Shown piece after piece: positions 9,563-19,470 of a DNA stretch of 64,000 bases. Below the pieces are notes generated by a model, which saw only the letters and a program-made list of their open reading frames with translations, was not told the DNA's origin and made no database searches. Positions within the stretch are counted from its first letter, which is position 1. Each line of letters starts with the position of its first letter. Origin of the DNA: Intestinibacillus sp. Marseille-P6563 (GTDB taxonomy: Bacteria > Bacillota > Clostridia > Oscillospirales > Butyricicoccaceae); contig NZ_UWOD01000001.1 of the NCBI RefSeq assembly GCF_900604335.1, positions 833,501 to 897,500 of the forward strand, in the 5' to 3' direction. The translations under genes and the position numbers were made by a program.

Positions 9563-9658
9563 TTAGACGGTGAACAGGCTGGAGAGCAGAGGTACGAGAA
9601 CCATGCCGACCACGGCGACGCCAGCGCCAGCCATGAGCTGCTTCATGCCCTGGCTCTT
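9563..9658 (-). pseudogene. maff2 3' half (disrupted)
   Basis: From the junction at 9656 the minus strand reads SQGMKQLMAGAGVAVVGMV and ends LLSSLFTV at TAA 9563. This is the second half of the Maff2 family, a ~65-residue small membrane protein that normally sits directly before the VirB6 gene. The first half lies 8.8 kb away at 18490-18600. ATG 9646 could still start a 27-residue hydrophobic peptide. Confidence 0.8.
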
Positions 9659-9676
9659 TGATTGTGTGCGATAAAG
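9651..9676. other. Left attachment junction of the nested element
   Basis: maff2 sequence ends at 9656. The crossover dinucleotide is TT at 9657-9658. After a 6-base gap the element arm TGTGCGATAAAG (9665-9676) begins. The right junction has the same spacing with the arm inverted (TGTGCGGTAAAG), as expected for a serine-recombinase site symmetric about a 2-bp core. Confidence 0.8.
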
Positions 9677-9748
9677 AAGCAATAGAAGTGTAAAAAATTT
9701 TGCCGTTCCTATCCGGCACTTGGCCATTGTGTCGGATAGGTCGGGCGG

Positions 9749-11395
<1,647 letters not shown>

Positions 11396-11476
11396 CTATT
11401 CCGTATTTTTATCATACCACATGGGGCGGCTGTCTGTATAGCGGCAAAAGCGTCAAAAGTGCTTCTTTATGTCCTG

Positions 11477-11662
11477 TCATATTGCCGGTTTTTGTGTAGC
11501 AGCTTCGGTCTGCAATACCTTTGCCATTTTGTCGGCGGCGGTTTCGCTGCTGCCCTGCTTGAAAAAGCCGGACACCACAAGGACAGAGTTGCCCATGCGG
11601 ATTTCCGTCACGCAGTCGGGGCGGCGGGGATTGGTTCGGTTGATCTGCTTGTTATCTGCCAT
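11477..11662 (-). CDS. TnpW-family transposon-encoded protein
   Basis: This 61-residue protein contains RRPDCVTEIRMGNSVLVVSG and a short Ala/Lys-rich helix. It matches the TnpW family that accompanies TnpX-like recombinases in Tn4451-like elements. Its function is not established. It lies between the helicase-loader gene (12-base gap) and the recombinase, all in one direction. Confidence 0.8.
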   Translation of the reverse strand: MADNKQINRTNPRRPDCVTEIRMGNSVLVVSGFFKQGSSETAADKMAKVLQTEAATQKPAI

Positions 11663-11674
11663 AGGCTACTCCTT

Positions 11675-12508
11675 TCACTCGTTCATCAAATTTTTCAGCC
11701 GTTCCAGCTTGGCCTGTGCGGTTTCCCTGCGGAAATTACCGCCTGTAAAACGGACGGGGGCACACATTTCCAGCAGCCGGTCATAGATACGGGCGTGGGC
11801 GGTGTCCGGCGGGTTCTGGATTTGCTGCAAGGTCAGGTTAGTGGTGACGATCAGCGGCCTGCGGCTACGGTATCGGCTGTCAATGACGCTGTAAACCTGT
11901 TCCAGCCCGTATTCTGTTCCACGCTCCATGCCGAAATCGTCCAAAATCAGCAGCGGATAGCGGCAGAGCCGGGAGATGTACTCGTTCCTGCCCTCAAAGC
12001 TGGCGGCAAGGTCATTGAGGATTGCAGCAAAGTTTGTCATGCGGACGGGGATTTCTTTCTCCATCAGGGCGTTTGCGATACAGCCCGCAAGGTAGCTTTT
12101 GCCGGTTCCCACACCGCCCCAAAAGAGATAGCCAATGTTCTCGGCCTGCATGGTGTCCCAATGCTCCGCATAGAACCGGGCAACAGCGGTCTGGGGGTTC
12201 CTGCCGTTGTCGTTTTCAAAAGTCCAGTCCCGCATGGCGGTATCGGAAAATCCCCGGCGTTTCAAGTCCTCTACGGTGTCAAGGTGTCTGCGCTGCTGTT
12301 CGGCGGCTTCACGCTCAATCCGCTGCGCCCGCTGGCAGTCGCACTCTGCCGGGTGGCGGTCAAGCCCGAAAAGCGTCTTGCCCTCCGGGAAATAGGCTTC
12401 TTTGGGCTTGCGGCATTTTCCGCAGTACAGCAAACCGTCCTCGCCTGTGTAGTCGCCGCTGTCCGGCTCGGTATCCGGCAGCAGATTGATATTCTCGATT
12501 TTGTTCAT
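11675..12508 (-). CDS. DnaC/IstB-like ATP-binding protein (helicase loader)
   Basis: This 277-residue protein has an N-terminal Cys cluster (CGKC...CDC, about 29-58) that may bind zinc. The AAA+ core has Walker A GGVGTGKS (about 133-140) and Walker B LLILDDFG. This matches DnaC-like loaders carried by mobilizable elements, which bring the replicative helicase to the element's origin. Its start overlaps the end of the replication-initiator gene (ATGA-type coupling), indicating a replication operon. Confidence 0.85.
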   Translation of the reverse strand: MNKIENINLLPDTEPDSGDYTGEDGLLYCGKCRKPKEAYFPEGKTLFGLDRHPAECDCQRAQRIEREAAEQQRRHLDTVEDLKRRGFSDTAMRDWTFENDNGRNPQTAVARFYAEHWDTMQAENIGYLFWGGVGTGKSYLAGCIANALMEKEIPVRMTNFAAILNDLAASFEGRNEYISRLCRYPLLILDDFGMERGTEYGLEQVYSVIDSRYRSRRPLIVTTNLTLQQIQNPPDTAHARIYDRLLEMCAPVRFTGGNFRRETAQAKLERLKNLMNE

Positions 12509-13266
12509 AAACTTTCCCCCTCCTTGCAGGTGTAGTCCGGGACGCCCTGTTTCGGGGCGTCCTTTTTATCGTTCTCCGCCCAGATCCGCAGGGCGGCGGC
12601 ATAGTTCTGGTAGGTTCTCCCGTTGGCGGCAAGGTAGCGGCTCATTTCTTCAATGAGCCGTTCCAGTCTGTCCGGGAACTCGGTTTTCAGTTCTGCATAC
12701 TCGGCTTCGGTCAGAAAAACATTTTCATATCTGCCAAACGGTTTGTGCGGCTCTTCACTCACTCCCATTGTTTGGTTTTCTATCAGGTTGTTTATAGTAA
12801 GGTTGTTAGGGGTCGGTTTTCCGACCGTCATAAGGTCGCTTTTCCGACCATCAGTAGATCGGTTTTCCGCACTTATGAGGGTCGCTTTTCCGACTGTCAT
12901 AGGGTCGGAAATCCGTACGAATGGCGGCAGCTTCACATACAGGCGGTTGGCTGCGGAAAATCCCGCCCGTTTCCGTTCCAGAAGTCCGGCTGCGTCCAGT
13001 TCGTTTAAGGCGGCTTTGATGGCGGTCTGCCCCTTATCCAGCATTTCGGCAATCTCCGCTATGGGATAGACAATGAATGTCCTGCCCTGATCGTCCTGCC
13101 AGCCGTTCCGCTGTGACAGGGTGGTGCGGTCTAACAGCAGCGCATAGAGCAGCTTGGCGGTCTGGGAAATGTCCATTTTCAGCAGGAACCGGGGATATGG
13201 CAGGTAGGGTGGCAAGCCTGTGTCCAGCCCTACATAAATGGTTTCCTGCGTGTTGTCCGGCTTCAT
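12505..13266 (-). CDS. Replication initiator protein (RepA/DUF6017-like)
   Basis: This 253-residue protein starts at ATG 13266, which overlaps the stop of the preceding small gene (ATGA). The N-terminal half (about 20-110) is a winged-helix replication-initiator A domain (PRFLLKMDISQTAKLLYALL, AEMLDKGQTAIKAALNELD). A C-terminal helical segment probably contacts the loader. The linker between them is encoded by five repeats spaced exactly 23 bp (see the repeat entry). It is followed immediately by the DnaC-like gene. I infer a theta-type replicon that maintains the excised circle. Confidence 0.82.
   Translation of the reverse strand: MKPDNTQETIYVGLDTGLPPYLPYPRFLLKMDISQTAKLLYALLLDRTTLSQRNGWQDDQGRTFIVYPIAEIAEMLDKGQTAIKAALNELDAAGLLERKRAGFSAANRLYVKLPPFVRISDPMTVGKATLISAENRSTDGRKSDLMTVGKPTPNNLTINNLIENQTMGVSEEPHKPFGRYENVFLTEAEYAELKTEFPDRLERLIEEMSRYLAANGRTYQNYAAALRIWAENDKKDAPKQGVPDYTCKEGESL
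12811..12916. repeat. Five 23-bp-spaced palindromic repeats inside rep (iteron-like)
   Basis: Copies of GGTCGsTTTTCCGACC begin at 12811, 12834, 12857, 12880 and 12903, an exact period of 23 bp, with copies 3 and 5 degenerate. Because 23 is not a multiple of 3, successive copies are translated in different frames, so conservation is at the DNA level. This is what iterons of a replication origin look like. Confidence 0.7.
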
Positions 13267-13433
13267 GGCTTCGCCCGCTTGGAGCGAAACGGCGGGCACT
13301 CGATGATAACAGCCCGGAAACTCTGCTTGCAGGTGCGGCGGCACCTGCGGCAAAGGGGATTGTAGGTGATACGGTTGCGCTCGTTGAGGAAGAACGCCCA
13401 TTCTTCTTTGCGCTTCTTGCTCATCCTCGGCAT
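13263..13433 (-). CDS. Small Cys-rich protein upstream of rep
   Basis: This 56-residue basic protein (MPRMSKKRKEEWAFFLNERN...) has a CRRCRRTC cysteine pair cluster and a later Cys, suggesting a zinc-binding or nucleic-acid-binding peptide. CAAGGAG precedes ATG 13433, and its TGA overlaps the rep start by four bases. Similar short proteins precede rep in related mobilizable elements. Function unknown. Confidence 0.65.
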   Translation of the reverse strand: MPRMSKKRKEEWAFFLNERNRITYNPLCRRCRRTCKQSFRAVIIECPPFRSKRAKP

Positions 13434-13495
13434 GGCGGCTCCTTGTATTATAGAGTAGTAGTTATTAGAGCCCCTCTCCAAGGGCTGTGCTACAC

Positions 13496-13681
13496 TGTAA
13501 GGGATGCTGTGGATTGGTTGGCGGCTCCTACCACAAGATGGTTCACGAAAGGTTCCAACCACAGCCCCTTACAATTTTGTTAATCAGTTAAATACCGCCA
13601 GACGGTTTATGTGGAACAAGGCTACAAAAGTAAGGTGTACTGTGGATACAGCATCACATATTTTCTCTGGAGGTATTTGTT
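13496..13681 (+). ncRNA. Possible IS110 left-end non-coding (bridge-RNA-type) segment
   Basis: IS110-family elements encode a bridge RNA in the non-coding end next to the transposase start. Here the roughly 185 bases before the IS110 transposase contain a long interrupted stem: GTAAGGG..GCTGTGG..GGTTGG from 13498 pairs with CCAACC-ACAGC-CCCTTAC ending at 13574, with internal loops. TACACT near 13490 could be its -10 box. The exact IS boundary is not visible. Confidence 0.3.
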
Positions 13682-14035
13682 ATGGTAGTTTCTGTTGGCA
13701 TTGATGTCTCAAAAAACAAGCATGATTGCTTCATTGTAAGCTCAGAGGGTGAAGTCCTGGCGGATGTTTTTACTATCCCTAACAACATGGACGGTTTTGA
13801 TGCTCTACTGGAAAAAATTCGAGCTTGTACTACACCGCAGGACAAAATAAAAGTAGGGCTTGAGGCAACCGGGCATTACAGCTACAACATTCTTGGGTTT
13901 CTTCTGGACAACGGTCTGGCCACCTATGTCTTGAATCCCCTACGCACGAACCTCTACCGGAAAAGTCTCAGCCTGCGAAAGACCAAGACCGACCGTGTAG
14001 ATGCTCGAACCATTGCTGCTAGTGGTGGCTCTTGA
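13682..14035 (+). pseudogene. IS110-family transposase, N-terminal fragment
   Basis: ATG 13682 follows CTGGAGGT. The 117-residue frame covers the RuvC-like DEDD domain with Asp8 (GIDVSKNKHD), Glu61 (GLEATGHY) and Asp104/Asp107 (KTDRVDARTIA). Family members are about 400 residues; here homology stops near 14020 and the frame runs into the antisense of a relaxase gene. The C-terminal Tnp domain with its catalytic serine is missing, so the element is dead. Confidence 0.85.
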
Positions 14036-14267
14036 TGTCCTCCCGTTTGCTGTTCTTGCCGTACCGCAGATTTGCCCGGATACAGGACAGGGCAAAATCC
14101 TCGTCCCCGCAGTTCAGCGTGTCCAGCCGGTAGTCCTGCCGGGGAATGAGCCGCCCGGCTTCGTCAAGGGTGGGCTTCATGGTAAACTCGTCATGCTCAA
14201 AGGTCAGATAGGCTTCGGCGGCTCCGTAGTCGGCATTTTTAGAGCTGATATGCTTGATCGTTGCCAT
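14019..14267 (-). pseudogene. Truncated MobA/MobL-type relaxase of the nested element
   Basis: ATG 14267 (MATIKHISSKNADYGAAEAYL) opens a conserved relaxase N-terminus. The frame ends at TAG 14019 after KREDIKSHH, exactly where the IS110 fragment begins. About 80 of the usual 400-plus residues remain, so the histidine motif and most of the nuclease are lost. The start overlaps the end of mobC, the normal arrangement. The IS110 insertion and a later deletion are the likely cause. Confidence 0.85.
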
Positions 14268-14640
14268 AGGCTTCACCTATCACTTTCAGCACCTCGAATT
14301 TGAGGGCGGCAAGGTCGGAAACGGCGGCTCTCACTTCGCTGGACAGGGCGTTGTAGGGTGCGCCGTATTCGTTCAGATACCGGGCGATCTGGTTTAAGTT
14401 GCTGCCGATTTTCCCGTACTGCGCCACAAGGGAAGATACGGCGGTGAGCATTTCCTCGCTGTGGGCAGTTACCCGGATAACAGGGGAAATCCGGCTGTAA
14501 AAAACGGCTTGCCGGATATACTCCGACTGGCTCATGGAGAGGGCGGCGCATTTGTCCTCAAAGGCTCTGCGCTCGTCCTCGGTCAGACGGGTCTTGACAA
14601 CACATTTCCGCTTGGGGGTGTTGTAGGTCTTGCGTGTCAT
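14239..14640 (-). CDS. mobC: MobC-like relaxosome accessory protein
   Basis: This 133-residue protein has an N-terminal ribbon-helix-helix-like region (VKTRLTEDERRAFEDKCAAL, SMSQSEYIRQAVF). The MobC helix segment SLVAQYGKIGSNLNQIARYLN lies at about 88-108. It binds oriT and helps the relaxase. It is intact, but its partner relaxase immediately downstream is truncated. The probable oriT lies upstream of its start. Confidence 0.85.
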   Translation of the reverse strand: MTRKTYNTPKRKCVVKTRLTEDERRAFEDKCAALSMSQSEYIRQAVFYSRISPVIRVTAHSEEMLTAVSSLVAQYGKIGSNLNQIARYLNEYGAPYNALSSEVRAAVSDLAALKFEVLKVIGEAYGNDQAYQL

Positions 14641-14739
14641 GGTGGCTCAACTCCTTTCGTTTGCTGCGGTTTGTCCTCTCACTGATAGGAGAAAAACAGG
14701 GTGTAAATCGGAACTGTTTTTGAAAAATCCGAAAAAATA

Positions 14740-14865
14740 TTTGCGGGGATTTTTCGGCGGCGCAAGCCGCAAAAGGCGGGTTTGGGGTGGCAACCCCAAC
14801 AAGTATCTGACCGGGGGGCAAATGAGCGAAAAGCGAAATTTGGTACACTGGTCGATACTTGCTCT
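14740..14865. other. Probable oriT of the nested element
   Basis: Upstream of mobC lie nested inverted repeats: GCGGC-GCAA-GCCGC near 14757, GGGGT-GGCA-ACCCC near 14784, and CAAGTATCTGACC (14800-14812) against GGTCGATACTTG (14850-14861). Inverted repeats directly before mobC-relaxase are typical of oriT. The nick site is not determined. Confidence 0.5.
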
Positions 14866-14921
14866 CCATGACTGCACACTTCCCCTCGCTTCTGTCCGCC
14901 ACTTTTTCCCGGTTTGTATAA

Positions 14922-15110
14922 ATGCTTTTTGCAAATTCTCCTTTGCCTACTACTCGTCCATCGGGTGCCGATTTTGGCAAGCTACTTCTTTTTCTGTTAC
15001 CAATAATTTGTGGAATAGTTTTTCTGCTCGCTGGTCGGGTAAAAATTTTTCTCTTGCTTACTACCGCACTTGGCAAAGGAAGAATGGCTGGAAAGTTAAA
15101 CGGACAATAA
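14922..15110 (+). CDS. Possible small hydrophobic membrane protein
   Basis: A 62-residue frame with a long hydrophobic stretch (KLLLFLLPIICGIVFLLAGR) and a basic tail ends five bases before a good terminator. No Shine-Dalgarno site is visible before ATG 14922, so the call is weak. The rest of 14641-15358 contains oriT, this frame and the terminator, and no other gene I can support. Confidence 0.25.
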   Translation: MLFANSPLPTTRPSGADFGKLLLFLLPIICGIVFLLAGRVKIFLLLTTALGKGRMAGKLNGQ

Positions 15111-15114
15111 AAAA

Positions 15115-15150
15115 TGCAGCAACCCATTTTCGGAGTTTGCTGCTTTATTC
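15115..15150 (+). terminator. Hairpin terminator
   Basis: GCAGCAA and TTGCTGC form a 7-bp stem followed by TTTATT. Confidence 0.55.
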
Positions 15151-15358
15151 TGGGAATCTTAAATTTTAAGAAAATAGGTCGATATAATTGTTAGAAAACC
15201 ACTATAGAAGAATTTTTCAACAATGAATTAGATTGGAGGAATTTAGCATGAACGCAATGAATATGTAACATCCAGTCTGACGATCAATAAAGTCAAAAGC
15301 ATGTAAATGTTGGAAATTATAATTGTTTACTAAATTTTAATTGATGGGAGGACGAATT

Positions 15359-16078
15359 ATGGCTATGCAGATCAATGGATATTCCCGTGCCTCTATGTTG
15401 GCACAGCAATTTTCCGGTATACAACAAAAAGCAAACACCGTAAAAACGCAAGATTTTACACAGCTGATGCAGAACACAAATGCAACCGCACAGGCAGCAG
15501 GCCAGACAGATGCGGCGGCGGCAACACAAGAAGTATCAGAAGTTGACGAGATGGAGGCTTTCAAGCAGGAAATTTATGAGGAACTGGCTGAAATTGATTC
15601 AATGACCGCTGCCTCTGTTTTGACTAATTCTATACATATTACAGAAGATGGATTCCAAAGAATGAAGGACGATCCAGAGTACCGCAAGGAGATTATGGAT
15701 TGGCTTCGAGCAGATGCGAGAGATTCACATAAGGTTCCTTTTGACTGCCATGTTACAACAACGATTACAAGTGCTGGAGCGACCAGCTATGGAATTAGTG
15801 ATACTGCAACAACGCCACAATGGGTTAATTCTAAAGCGGAGGGGGCGTTTTATCGTTCTGACCGCAGAGCTGAGCAGCGCAAGAGGAACAACGAGTATGT
15901 GACCGAGGAACGCCTAAAGCGGGAACTTATGCAAAAAATGATACTGGAAAAGAGCATTGACCGAAAGGAACAGCTGCAAGCACTTGACCAGAGAATGTTT
16001 GCACAGGATGTTGTTAACCAGAAGTATGTTCAAGATTATTTGCTGGGAACGCAGGAACCCAGAATGTGGTACATTTAA
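15359..16078 (+). CDS. Unknown protein, DUF6033-like
   Basis: This 239-residue soluble protein starts at ATG 15359 seven bases after GGGAGGA. It begins MAMQINGYSRASMLAQQFSG, has a Gln/Ala-rich N-terminal third, a central TAASVLTNSIHITEDGFQRM segment followed by DPEYRKEIMDWLRAD, and a charged C-terminal helix. I recall similar proteins under a DUF6033-type label but cannot verify that. It is the first of two forward genes that form the only non-mobilisation cargo of the nested element. No signal peptide or membrane segment is seen. Confidence 0.6.
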   Translation: MAMQINGYSRASMLAQQFSGIQQKANTVKTQDFTQLMQNTNATAQAAGQTDAAAATQEVSEVDEMEAFKQEIYEELAEIDSMTAASVLTNSIHITEDGFQRMKDDPEYRKEIMDWLRADARDSHKVPFDCHVTTTITSAGATSYGISDTATTPQWVNSKAEGAFYRSDRRAEQRKRNNEYVTEERLKRELMQKMILEKSIDRKEQLQALDQRMFAQDVVNQKYVQDYLLGTQEPRMWYI

Positions 16079-16141
16079 TATAAATATCGCTATCAAATAG
16101 CCACTTACAAGGGCAGTTGAACAATTGGCTATTCTTTTTCT

Positions 16142-16234
16142 ATTATAAAGAAGCCCGTGTGGAGATGAAAGCTGTCGCCCAAGGACAGGCACAGGCACTT
16201 ACTAGCGCAGTCACCGTGGATATTCGGGCATGAC
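16142..16234 (+). pseudogene. Possible gene-end remnant between the two cargo genes
   Basis: A forward frame reading YYKEARVEMKAVAQGQAQAL and ending TSAVTVDIRA at TGA has amphipathic, protein-like composition but no start or ribosome site. It may be the tail of a lost gene. Composition is the only evidence. Confidence 0.2.
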
Positions 16235-16263
16235 AGCGAACTTTCAGGAAGGGGTGTAACAAT

Positions 16264-16728
16264 ATGACGATCACAGATATTGCCCGTATGATGATGAACG
16301 CAGATCAGTATCAGCGTGGAGTCACACAGCCGAAATATCCAAACGGCGCTGCGGTATCAGATCCGAATGCGCCCGATGACGGACTGGATATTACAGGCAT
16401 GACCGCAGCGGACTTTCACATCATCCCTGTATCCAAAGAAGCAGAACAGGCGGTGCGGGATATCGCTTTGGAGCACATGAAAAAGTATTATGGAATGTCC
16501 GGGCCTGACGGCAATGATCTGGGAAATTTCATCAAGTCCTATTATAAGCAAGTCCCCGTCTCAGACCGCGCTAATGCTGGCTGGACATTGAATCAAATGC
16601 ACAGGGATGAGGCCTATCGTCTCTATGATTTCGTCCGTTCCCGTGTTCCCGGCTGGGAGACTGGTCAATGGTTTGATACCAGTATTTTGGAGGAATACAA
16701 GCAGGGAACTCTGGATATGAAAGCATAA
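16264..16728 (+). CDS. Unknown protein of the nested element
   Basis: This 154-residue soluble protein starts at ATG 16264 after GGAAGGGGTGT. It has a conserved-looking middle: MTAADFHIIPVSKEAEQAVR, then MKKYYGMSGPDGND and a helical C-terminus ending DTSILEEYKQGTLDMKA. No motif that I recognise. It lies 185 bases after the DUF6033-like gene and directly before the IS1182-type insertion, so the two may form one cargo operon whose downstream part was separated by the IS. Confidence 0.6.
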   Translation: MTITDIARMMMNADQYQRGVTQPKYPNGAAVSDPNAPDDGLDITGMTAADFHIIPVSKEAEQAVRDIALEHMKKYYGMSGPDGNDLGNFIKSYYKQVPVSDRANAGWTLNQMHRDEAYRLYDFVRSRVPGWETGQWFDTSILEEYKQGTLDMKA

Positions 16729-16757
16729 GCACATTTGGAGGAAAAATAATCACAAAT

Positions 16758-16787
16758 AGCGGCAGAAAGGAACACCTTTCTGCCGCT
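16758..16787. repeat. 30-bp palindrome, left copy flanking the IS
   Basis: A 13-bp arm beginning AGCGGCAGAAAGG, an AACA loop and the complementary arm form a perfect hairpin. The same 30 bases recur at 18359-18388 on the other side of the IS. Confidence 0.9.
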
Positions 16788-16851
16788 CAGTCTGTCGAAA
16801 AAGTCCGGCGAAAGCTGGGCTTTTTCGTTTGCAAGAGGTAAAATAGCATAG

Positions 16852-18330
16852 GTGGTGAGAAAGATGCTGGAACGCGGGAAGATGGATCGCAATGTGATAG
16901 AGATGGTGGAAATAGATAGCCTGGTACCAGAGGGGCATTTACTTCGGAAAATAGACAAGGCAGTAGATTTCAACCGTTTATATGAAATGGTAGAACCGTT
17001 ATACTGTGAAGACAACGGCAGGCCGAGTGTAGACCCGGTGGTGCTGTTCAAAATGGTACTGATCCAGCATCTATATGGATTGCCATCCCTTCGGCGGACG
17101 GCGGAGGAGGTAAGCGGCAATATTTATTACCGCTGGTTTCTGGGGTATACCTTACAGGAGGAAACGCCCCACTTTTCCACGGTGAGCTATAACTTCCGGC
17201 ACCGCTTTACGGAGGAGACAGTAGACCAGGTATTCCGTTGGATTTTGGAGGAGGTAGCGGAGGCAGGTTATCTTTCCCCCAAGGCGGTATTTATAGACGG
17301 AACGCACATCAAAGCCAATGCCAATACCAAAAAGCAGGTGAAGGTGCGGATTCCGGCGGCATCCAGGCACTATGCCAAGGAACTGATGGAAGAGGTAAAC
17401 ACAGACCGGGAACTCCACGGAAAGAAACCCTTTGACGATGATGATGAGCCACCGGCTCCGACAAAGAAGCCCAGAGACAACACCTCCAAGAAGAAGCTGG
17501 CCCGGCGGAAGAAGGAAAAGCAGCGTACAGTGCCCCAGAGCGTAACAGACCCTGACAGCGGCCTGTTTGTGAAGGGAGAGCACAAGCGGCAGTTTGCCTA
17601 TGAGGCCCACACCGCCTGTGATAAGCATGGGTTTGTTCTGGAGACGGTCATTACCCCTGGAAATGTACATGACAGCGTGGCCTTTGATGAAGTGTATGAC
17701 CGTGTGACGGCAGATTTCCCGGAAGTAGAGACGATTGTTGCCGATTCCGCCTACAAGACCCCGCATATCTGTAAAAAGGTATTTGAAGATGGACGTGCGC
17801 TCTCCACCGCCTACAAGCGTCCGCAGACCATGAAGGGTGGACACGAGTGGTGGAAGTATGTGTATGACGAGTACTACAACTGTGTGCTCTGTCCGGAATA
17901 CCAAGTGTTGTCCTACCGTACCACCAACCGGGATGGATACCGGGAGTACAGAAGTGATCCTCGCGTCTGTGTAAACTGTCCTACCCGCCACCTGTGCACC
18001 CACTCCAAAGACTGTGTCAAAACGGTACAGCGGCATATCTGGAAAGACTATGAGGACTTAGCCGACGACGTCCGCTATACGCCAAAATACCAGAGACTTT
18101 ACAAGCGCCGGAAGGAAACCATTGAACGGGTCTTTGCCGACGCCAAGGAAAAACACGCCATGCGTTATACCCAGTACAGAGGCTTGGCCCAGGTGTCCAA
18201 CTGGGTGAAGCTTAAATTTGCTGCCATGAATCTCAAAAAACTGGCCTGTTGGTTGTGGAAGGAGAAGCTTGCTCCATTTACCCTTATCCTTCTTTGGCAG
18301 CTATACACAAGAAACCCGGCTTATGCTTGA
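16852..18330 (+). CDS. IS1182-family DDE transposase
   Basis: This 492-residue protein has the N-terminal DUF772-type domain (VPEGHLLRKIDKAVDFNRLY). A basic insert follows at about 190-225 (KKKLARRKKEKQR). The DDE core has VFIDGTHIKANANTKK, ADSAYKTPHICKK and a final glutamate in ERVFADAKEKHAMRYTQYRG. A CPEY...CVNCPTRHLC cysteine cluster lies before the last block. GTG 16852 and ATG 16864 are both possible starts; AGGTGG favours the ATG. Full length and apparently active. Confidence 0.9.
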   Translation: MVRKMLERGKMDRNVIEMVEIDSLVPEGHLLRKIDKAVDFNRLYEMVEPLYCEDNGRPSVDPVVLFKMVLIQHLYGLPSLRRTAEEVSGNIYYRWFLGYTLQEETPHFSTVSYNFRHRFTEETVDQVFRWILEEVAEAGYLSPKAVFIDGTHIKANANTKKQVKVRIPAASRHYAKELMEEVNTDRELHGKKPFDDDDEPPAPTKKPRDNTSKKKLARRKKEKQRTVPQSVTDPDSGLFVKGEHKRQFAYEAHTACDKHGFVLETVITPGNVHDSVAFDEVYDRVTADFPEVETIVADSAYKTPHICKKVFEDGRALSTAYKRPQTMKGGHEWWKYVYDEYYNCVLCPEYQVLSYRTTNRDGYREYRSDPRVCVNCPTRHLCTHSKDCVKTVQRHIWKDYEDLADDVRYTPKYQRLYKRRKETIERVFADAKEKHAMRYTQYRGLAQVSNWVKLKFAAMNLKKLACWLWKEKLAPFTLILLWQLYTRNPAYA

Positions 18331-18348
18331 CGCATATGCCGGGTTTCT
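18311..18348 (+). terminator. IS right-end hairpin
   Basis: GAAACCCGGC pairs with GCCGGGTTTC around an inner ATGC/GCAT helix, just after the transposase stop. Confidence 0.6.
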
Positions 18349-18358
18349 CGACAGGCTG

Positions 18359-18388
18359 AGCGGCAGAAAGGAACACCTTTCTGCCGCT
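18359..18388. repeat. 30-bp palindrome, right copy flanking the IS
   Basis: Identical to 16758-16787. It is read as the target duplication made when the IS entered the palindrome. Confidence 0.9.
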
Positions 18389-18469
18389 ATTTTTCTCAAT
18401 ATCATTTTCTGCAATTTTGCATTTTTGCAGTTGCGGAAAAGTGGGTGACTGTCAAATTCTTATGTGATA

Positions 18470-18495
18470 CTTTACCGCACATGAGCATTCGCGCC
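18470..18495. other. Right attachment junction of the nested element
   Basis: CTTTACCGCACA (18470-18481), the inverse of the left arm with one mismatch, is followed by 6 bases, the TT crossover pair (18488-18489) and then maff2 5' sequence (GGCGCG on the minus strand). Confidence 0.8.
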
Positions 18496-19470
18496 GGGGT
18501 TGTCGTTACCGTAACCTTCCAGCAGGTTGATGACGCCCCAGATGCCGAGACCGGCTCCCAGAGCAATAACGAGGGTCTGCAAAACGGTGATAGTTTCCTG
18601 CATCCGCTGGGGCGTATAGCTTTTGGGGAAATACTTCCGCAGGGTGTCGGAGGTGAAAGTCACTTTGTCGAGATCACTTTTCTTTTCCTCGCCCATGATG
18701 ACGCGCATCATATCAAGGGTCAGATGTCCTTCCTGGCTGTATTTCTTGAGCCGCTGGGCCTGGGAGAGAGAGGGGGTAGCCTGTTCGCTGTCCATCGCGT
18801 CCAGCAAGTCCCGCTGTTCCTCTTTTTTGAGGAAAGACAGCTCATAAGCCGGGTTGAGGGCGATTTTCTTTTCATCTACCATATCCAGCAGTTCGGGGAT
18901 AAGCTCCGTCAGGCGAATATAGCGGAAAATCTGATTTTTACTCTGGCCGACCTGTTCAGCCAAAAGCTCGCTGGACTTCTTTCCAGCAGACTTGTTCCCA
19001 ACTTGGGAACAAGTTAAATCCACGCGCTCACCTTGGTGCTTCATAGCATCCAGCTTCATCTTGTAGGCAAAGGCCCTCTCGCTGGGGAACAGGCTTTCCC
19101 GCTGTAAGTTGCTGTCCACCATGATGATGGTGGCGGCATCATCGTCCAAATCCCGGACGATGACCGGCATAGTCTCTTTCTCAGCCAGCTCACTGGCTCG
19201 GTGCCGCCTGTGTCCGGCTACCAGCTCATAGCCGCCCTCCGGGTCCGGCCGGGCAATCGCCGGAACCAGAACACCATACTGCCGAACACTGTCGGCGGTC
19301 TCCAGCATGGCCTCGTCATCCTTGACTTTGAAGGGATGGTTCTTGAAAGGATGCAGCTCAGACAGCGGGATTTCCTGTATCTTCTCCAGCTTGGCATCCT
19401 GGCGGCCTTCTTCGGTGGAGAATAAATCATCTACCGAGGCCAGCTCTACTTTTTTCGCGCTGCTTTTCAA
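18472..19470 (-). CDS. parB: ParB-like partition protein fused in frame to the Maff2 N-terminus
   Basis: This 332-residue product has a ParB/Spo0J nuclease-like domain (about 30-125, with LVAGHRRHRASELA and DLDDDAATIIMVDSNLQRES) and a HTH centre (SKNQIFRYIRLTELIPELLD). From about residue 293 the ParB C-terminus is replaced by the Maff2 sequence TVLQTLVIALGAGLGIWGVI and NLLEGYGNDNPGA. Six element-derived codons and a stop at 18472 follow. The ATG at 19470 overlaps parA by 44 bases. DNA binding may survive; the hydrophobic tail would tether it to the membrane. Confidence 0.82.
   Translation of the reverse strand: MKSSAKKVELASVDDLFSTEEGRQDAKLEKIQEIPLSELHPFKNHPFKVKDDEAMLETADSVRQYGVLVPAIARPDPEGGYELVAGHRRHRASELAEKETMPVIVRDLDDDAATIIMVDSNLQRESLFPSERAFAYKMKLDAMKHQGERVDLTCSQVGNKSAGKKSSELLAEQVGQSKNQIFRYIRLTELIPELLDMVDEKKIALNPAYELSFLKKEEQRDLLDAMDSEQATPSLSQAQRLKKYSQEGHLTLDMMRVIMGEEKKSDLDKVTFTSDTLRKYFPKSYTPQRMQETITVLQTLVIALGAGLGIWGVINLLEGYGNDNPGANAHVR

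Follow-up and report, generated by a model that had tools for sequence, protein, structure and literature searches.

A 23-bp iteron array lies inside the gene of a RepA_N replication initiator in the 64-kb stretch of the Intestinibacillus sp. Marseille-P6563 genome that we analysed (hereafter the window; Table 1). Very probably, this array serves an integrative mobilizable element (IME) as its origin of theta replication, placed within the element's own initiator gene and bound by the initiator. We base this on what was observed of the protein family, the position, period and dyad symmetry of the repeats, the constraint on their DNA and the co-variation between iterons and recognition helix. 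The layout itself is already known from RepA_N plasmids (PMC5703833, PMC9743546), and a full-length RepA_N gene that carries its array internally and sits on an IME is a useful extension of this known kind of origin.

The array and the rep gene

The array is made up of five units of 16 bp, which begin at 12811, 12834, 12857, 12880 and 12903, with a spacing of 23 bp throughout, just as an earlier note on this DNA had described, and on the coding (minus) strand the unit reads GGTCGG-AAAA-CCGACC. The consensus given in that note overstated the uniformity of the array: unit 1 (GGTCGGTTTTCCGACC) is a perfect palindrome with an arm pairing of 6/6, and arm pairing is 5/6 in unit 2 and 4/6 in each of units 3, 4 and 5. 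Besides the perfect palindrome, there are two good units (2 and 4), both mismatched at the base adjoining the A-tract and unit 4 also at an outer base; a degenerate one (unit 3), with GATCGG in place of the GGTCGG kept by close relatives; and unit 5 (GGTCGGAAATCCGTAC), which has no T-tract (no intact A-tract on the coding strand) and is best seen as a half-site. The self-match at lag 23 (44/60) is the strongest short-period repeat within the window, and this score was reached by none of 1000 dinucleotide shuffles of the rep gene (maximum 35) and by none of 2000 protein-preserving recodings (lag-23 maximum 35). No further copy of the exact iterons was found elsewhere in the 3.28-Mb host genome. 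The array consists of direct repeats whose inverted arms converge on an A-tract, and this is the form described for RepA_N iterons, semi-palindromic direct repeats that run together at a poly-A tract (PMC7145576). Because 23 is not a multiple of three, successive copies rotate through the reading frames (phases 1, 0, 2, 1, 0), so that they are indeed translated in all three, as previously claimed, and a similar peptide is encoded only by every third copy (SDPMTVGK.T and SDLMTVGKPT).

The rep protein matched Pfam PF06970 (RepA_N) with an E value of 5.4e-15 (55.5 bits, cut-off 30), and the domain was present in all 20 homologues checked. Sequence matches also included the solved RepA N-terminal domains 4pta, 4pt7 and 4pql and the Rep-DNA complex 5kbj; the same four structures (4pql, 4pt7, 5kbj and 4pta) were the top Foldseek matches of the predicted fold (E 8e-7 to 2e-5), a model of moderate confidence (pLDDT 65). 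The listed rep ORF has 298 aa and runs to 13401, which is too long; we chose the ATG at 13266 as the likely start because it and the stop codon of the small ORF upstream overlap (ATGA) and because two relatives at 96-97% identity, L010 and L011, have stop codons within the extension. The model consists of an N-terminal winged-helix domain (NTD), a low-confidence stretch (residues 118-171) and a small helical C-terminal domain, presumed to contact the host replisome. The array encodes residues 114-152, nearly all inside this low-confidence linker joining the two domains; RepA_N replicons typically have their iterons placed in this way, inside rep and in its interdomain linker. The A+T-rich stretch adjoining the array is a candidate unwinding element.

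Table 1 Features of the rep region and of the inferred host element (window positions)
Feature	Position	Strand	Detail or basis
Iteron array, period 23 bp	12811..12918	.	Units 12811-12826, 12834-12849, 12857-12872, 12880-12895 and half-site 12903-12918
rep, RepA_N replication initiator, 253 aa	12505..13266	-	PF06970; PDB RepA NTD 4pta/4pt7/5kbj; start from ATGA overlap and stops in relatives
RepA_N N-terminal DNA-binding domain (NTD), residues 19-114	12925..13212	-	Sequence matches, predicted fold
wHTH recognition helix segment DKGQTAIKAALNELD, residues 77-91	12994..13038	-	Predicted helix 80-92; sole NTD stretch predicting iteron arms
C-terminal domain, residues about 172-235	12562..12753	-	Folded in model; PHROG DnaD-like helicase loader matches
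Most A+T-rich 50 bp of rep, adjoining array	12759..12808	.	66% AT vs 46% in whole gene
Small upstream ORF (MPRMSKKRKEEW...), stop overlaps rep start	13263..13433	-	ORF list, sequence
DnaC/IstB-like helicase loader, ATG overlaps rep stop	11675..12508	-	Domain and sequence matches
Inferred IME between maff2 halves	9658..18490 (about)	.	Relatives' boundaries, split maff2
Large serine recombinase	9749..11365	-	PF00239, PF07508, PF13408, PF14287
MobC/NikA-like accessory protein	14239..14640	-	Domain match
Relaxase, N-terminal fragment, 85 aa	14019..14276	-	ORF list, comparison with L009 and L011
IS110 transposase fragment replacing rest of relaxase	13682..14035	+	PF01548

Divergence was compared by codon position among 13 relatives that share the GGTCGG-type array. 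At positions 1, 2 and 3 it was 0.107, 0.065 and 0.292 in the NTD, and a flat 0.108, 0.146 and 0.109 in the array. The ratio of position 3 to positions 1 and 2 together (0.43 in the array vs 1.69 in the NTD) and the synonymous changes per conserved residue (0.066 vs 0.268, about four-fold fewer in the array) are descriptive values without a p value, because the 13 sequences are related. As the array lacks codon-position structure and has about four-fold fewer synonymous changes than the NTD, the DNA itself is constrained; in these sequences the array evolves as DNA, and selection on the peptide that it encodes has left little sign. The earlier note had argued that selection must act on DNA since the copies encode different residues; the flat codon positions uphold the constraint, although it does not follow from the spacing alone.

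Period, arms and recognition helix across the family

From about 1800 searched genomes, a GTDB scan and annotated records we collected 177 RepA_N ORFs, grouped into 72 clusters. A significant repeat after the N-terminal domain was detected in 56 clusters, and its best lag was 23 or 46 in 47 of them; in the others the best lags include 22, 24, 25 and 45-48, with 15 in two. The spacing check in homologues that the earlier note had suggested thus gave 23 bp and not 21, with a few clusters at 22 or 24. The same period is found inside rep of the Staphylococcus equorum RepA_N plasmid pKS1030-1. The arms vary by clade (GGTCGG/CCGACC, TAAAG/CTTTA, GGACAG/CTGTCC, TTTCG/CGAAA, TTGTC/GACAA, AGTG/CAC and others), yet clades with unrelated arm sequences still share the 23-bp period. 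Within a unit the arms are complementary around the A-tract, at 4.74 of 6 for a unit's own arms vs 1.66 when arms were swapped among the 31 distinct sets. The dyad centre was searched around the A-tract, a periodic palindrome otherwise having two centres, and with a search-matched control (same search, shuffled units, n = 200) the excess was smaller but clear (4.86 for the real units vs 3.68, control maximum 3.98).

Relatives of rep were absent from the results of the IMG/VR scan, blastn of the gene against plasmids gave no match, and tblastn in plasmids and phages found relatives only at <60% identity. Many RepA_N relatives match by the N-terminal half only or by the C-terminal half only, suggesting that the DNA-binding/origin module may frequently be swapped against the replisome-contact module. 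We rejected the idea that the array has a DnaA box as its conserved partner, since such a box is present in only 12 of the 72 genes and has no recognisable copy in the window's rep gene. A perfect box (TTATCCACA) lies inside rep of L008, L121, L136 and L175, adjoining the array in L008 and L136, and is not general in the family.

Other initiators of the same genome carry arrays of their own. The L008 initiator has a 23-bp array with GACAATT arms, and in members of its subfamily (L117, L120, L133, L138, L142) three in-frame repeats of 15 bp, rich in A+T (AATAATACTGATNTT), come after the 23-bp array and are a candidate unwinding element. A 263-aa initiator-like gene, L152 (C2:276000), has a 22-bp repeat array of GGTGAAATCCATTTCACC-like units. 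L150 (C2:1115800) and L151 (C1:474200), whose N-terminal domain is of a different kind, have palindromic repeats of 15 bp (CCAAC-TTGG) between their domains, which stay in frame and are translated as LENPT repeats; these are apparently another embedded array, in frame. Different arrays within one genome are as expected if initiators must not cross-react. It had been stated beforehand that in-frame spacing in homologues would speak against an origin; this does not hold, because initiators of the same genome bear in-frame palindromic repeats at the same place.

Comparison of GGTCGG-type with TAAAG-type genes revealed consistent differences at only four aligned NTD columns, all in a six-residue stretch where the recognition helix begins (G-x-T-x-x-K vs S-x-M-x-x-Q/H, respectively). 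Helix identity predicted arm identity once the remainder of the NTD was controlled for (partial r 0.37, p 0.0002; 30 sequences at <85% identity), and in the same 30 sequences the rest of the NTD added nothing given the helix (p 0.14). An unbiased scan of all 8-residue NTD windows peaked at residues 59-61, and each of two subfamilies taken alone, that of the window's initiator and that of L008, gave this peak again. The helix-start residues are T81 and K84 in the window, and the first position is E, Q, K, N, T or M elsewhere; tendencies between residues and bases were E-CGA, K-GAC, Q-CA(C/T), T-CCG and M-CT(T/G), with mutual-information values uncorrected for ancestry. The co-variation of helix and arms therefore links the repeats with the protein whose gene holds them, and together with the RepA_N homology it supports, at the level of sequence comparison, the earlier proposal that they are bound by the encoded initiator. 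In Vibrio cholerae PLE elements, the RepA_N domain and the origin are known to co-vary as modules (PMC8263062); a residue-level statement on helix and iteron was not found in the literature searched, which lacked key structural papers. The balance is about even, in our judgement, for the broader proposal that RepA_N initiators follow a readable amino-acid-to-base code, in which a few helix-start residues set the arms in the same gene, and that integrative mobilizable elements are RepA_N replicons.

Alternative explanations and known replicons

The encoded protein could bind the repeats for autoregulation or copy control, by a roadblock on rep transcription or by handcuffing, and not for origin firing. 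The array does lie within a transcribed gene, and its co-variation with the recognition helix is evidence of recognition and not of origin function; however, in pSK41, the best-studied relative, the corresponding array, at this same position in rep, is the ori (PMC5703833), and here an A+T-rich stretch adjoins it. We regard this explanation as unlikely, while noting that the autoregulatory and origin roles are compatible with each other.

The palindromes might also act as mRNA hairpins (GGUCGG-AAAA-CCGACC) controlling rep expression, and the minus strand of 12795-12940 folds unusually well (-47.9 kcal/mol, z -5.0 vs shuffles). Yet the predicted fold pairs different units together and not each unit with itself, G-U is not enriched among the non-Watson-Crick arm pairs (34/186, 18%, with about 17% by chance), and hairpins leave unexplained both the arms tracking the recognition helix and the family-wide 23-bp period. 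On the G-U counts and the fold, we rejected hairpins as the main cause of the repeats and hold this account to be very unlikely; the strong fold itself either simply follows from the palindromes or reflects a further role of the segment in the mRNA. A protein-level or neutral tandem repeat would suit a linker that is predicted to be disordered and the register of every third copy, but the period is not divisible by three, synonymous sites in the array are under tighter constraint than those of the NTD, and clades with unrelated arms have the 23-bp period in common. An in-frame protein repeat was rejected, as the recodings miss the lag-23 score and synonymous sites in the array are constrained, and such an origin of the repeats is extremely improbable.

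An origin inside the initiator gene is in line with the pSK41/pTZ2162-type RepA_N replicons of Staphylococcus, which have the RepA_N N-terminal domain and Rep boxes placed centrally in rep, in the linker-coding stretch, and whose semi-palindromic direct repeats likewise converge on an A-tract, with the 23-bp spacing also present in S. equorum; the linker encoded by the pSK41 boxes is dispensable (PMC5703833). Unlike these plasmids, the window has an integrated mobilizable element, GC-rich arms, an adjacent DnaC-like loader gene and a different C-terminal domain. Class F theta replicons (pAD1, pCF10, pPD1, pLJ1) are marked by iterons in the initiator coding sequence (2022, PMC9743546), and the multiple iterons inside rep resemble them in this respect, although the pAD1 iteron is TAGTRRR (PMC9743546) and the units here are 23-bp palindromic ones. 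PLE satellites have semi-palindromic iterons bound by a RepA_N protein whose domain co-varies with the origin (PMC7145576, PMC8263062), as predicted for binding here, but PLE iterons are about 30 bp and lie in a non-coding region outside repA. The papers on Tn5252/Tn1549-superfamily ICEs and on maff2-inserted serine-integrase IMEs (PMC4701971, PMC5357655) describe elements similar to ours in having a RepA_N gene on an integrated element, a serine integrase and maff2 as the target; replication is there inferred from the gene, with no origin described in the passages concerned. According to the IME survey of 2017, streptococcal IMEs have RepA_N proteins only about 100 aa long, unlike the 253 aa with an internal array here, and replication of an excised IME had not been reported as of that year (PMC5357655).

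Host element and proposed mechanism

Similarity to L011 and L012 stops at 9656-9665, and the C-terminal half of maff2 begins at 9657 while its N-terminal half ends near 18491, so a serine recombinase (9749-11365) adjoins a split maff2, as expected of an IME in maff2. This recombinase is presumed to be the integrase of the element. The IME survey names maff2 of Tn5252-superfamily ICEs as a target of IME serine integrases (PMC5357655). Genes for ParA, ParB, VirB6, VirB4-like and relaxase proteins flank the inferred IME on both sides, and the simplest reading is that they belong to a Tn1549-like conjugative element (ICE) into whose maff2 the IME has inserted. Beside the insertion site, the reading frame of ParB continues into that of the N-terminal Maff2 half (18472-19470), apparently a fusion made by deletion. 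The gene order mobC, relaxase, small ORF, rep, loader, serine recombinase is kept in L009 and L011, where the relaxase ORF is full-length (540 aa). The intact relaxase of an IME is missing from this copy, which has probably lost the ability to mobilize itself, because the IS110 fragment cut the relaxase to 85 aa; about 1.6 kb of relaxase sequence found in L009 is missing from the window at the IS110 junction (13682-14276).

In the mechanism that we propose by analogy, the N-terminal winged-helix domain of the initiator would bind the 23-bp iterons in the DNA coding for the flexible linker of the same protein. Its C-terminal domain, probably assisted by the DnaC-like loader from the overlapping gene, would recruit the helicase or primase of the host to the A+T-rich DNA beside the array, where melting would take place, and the excised circle would be copied and kept until reintegration. 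This particular copy may be decaying and its origin out of use, since unit 3 has lost arm bases kept by close relatives and the relaxase is broken.

With the array in rep, IMEs of gut bacteria gain a concrete candidate origin, and the replication of excised elements becomes testable. If the code between helix and iteron is true, replicon specificity, and presumably incompatibility, would be readable from one gene sequence. The paired change of helix and iteron thus offers a way to predict, from that sequence, which elements compete for the same initiator, and such prediction would include elements related to carriers of resistance genes.
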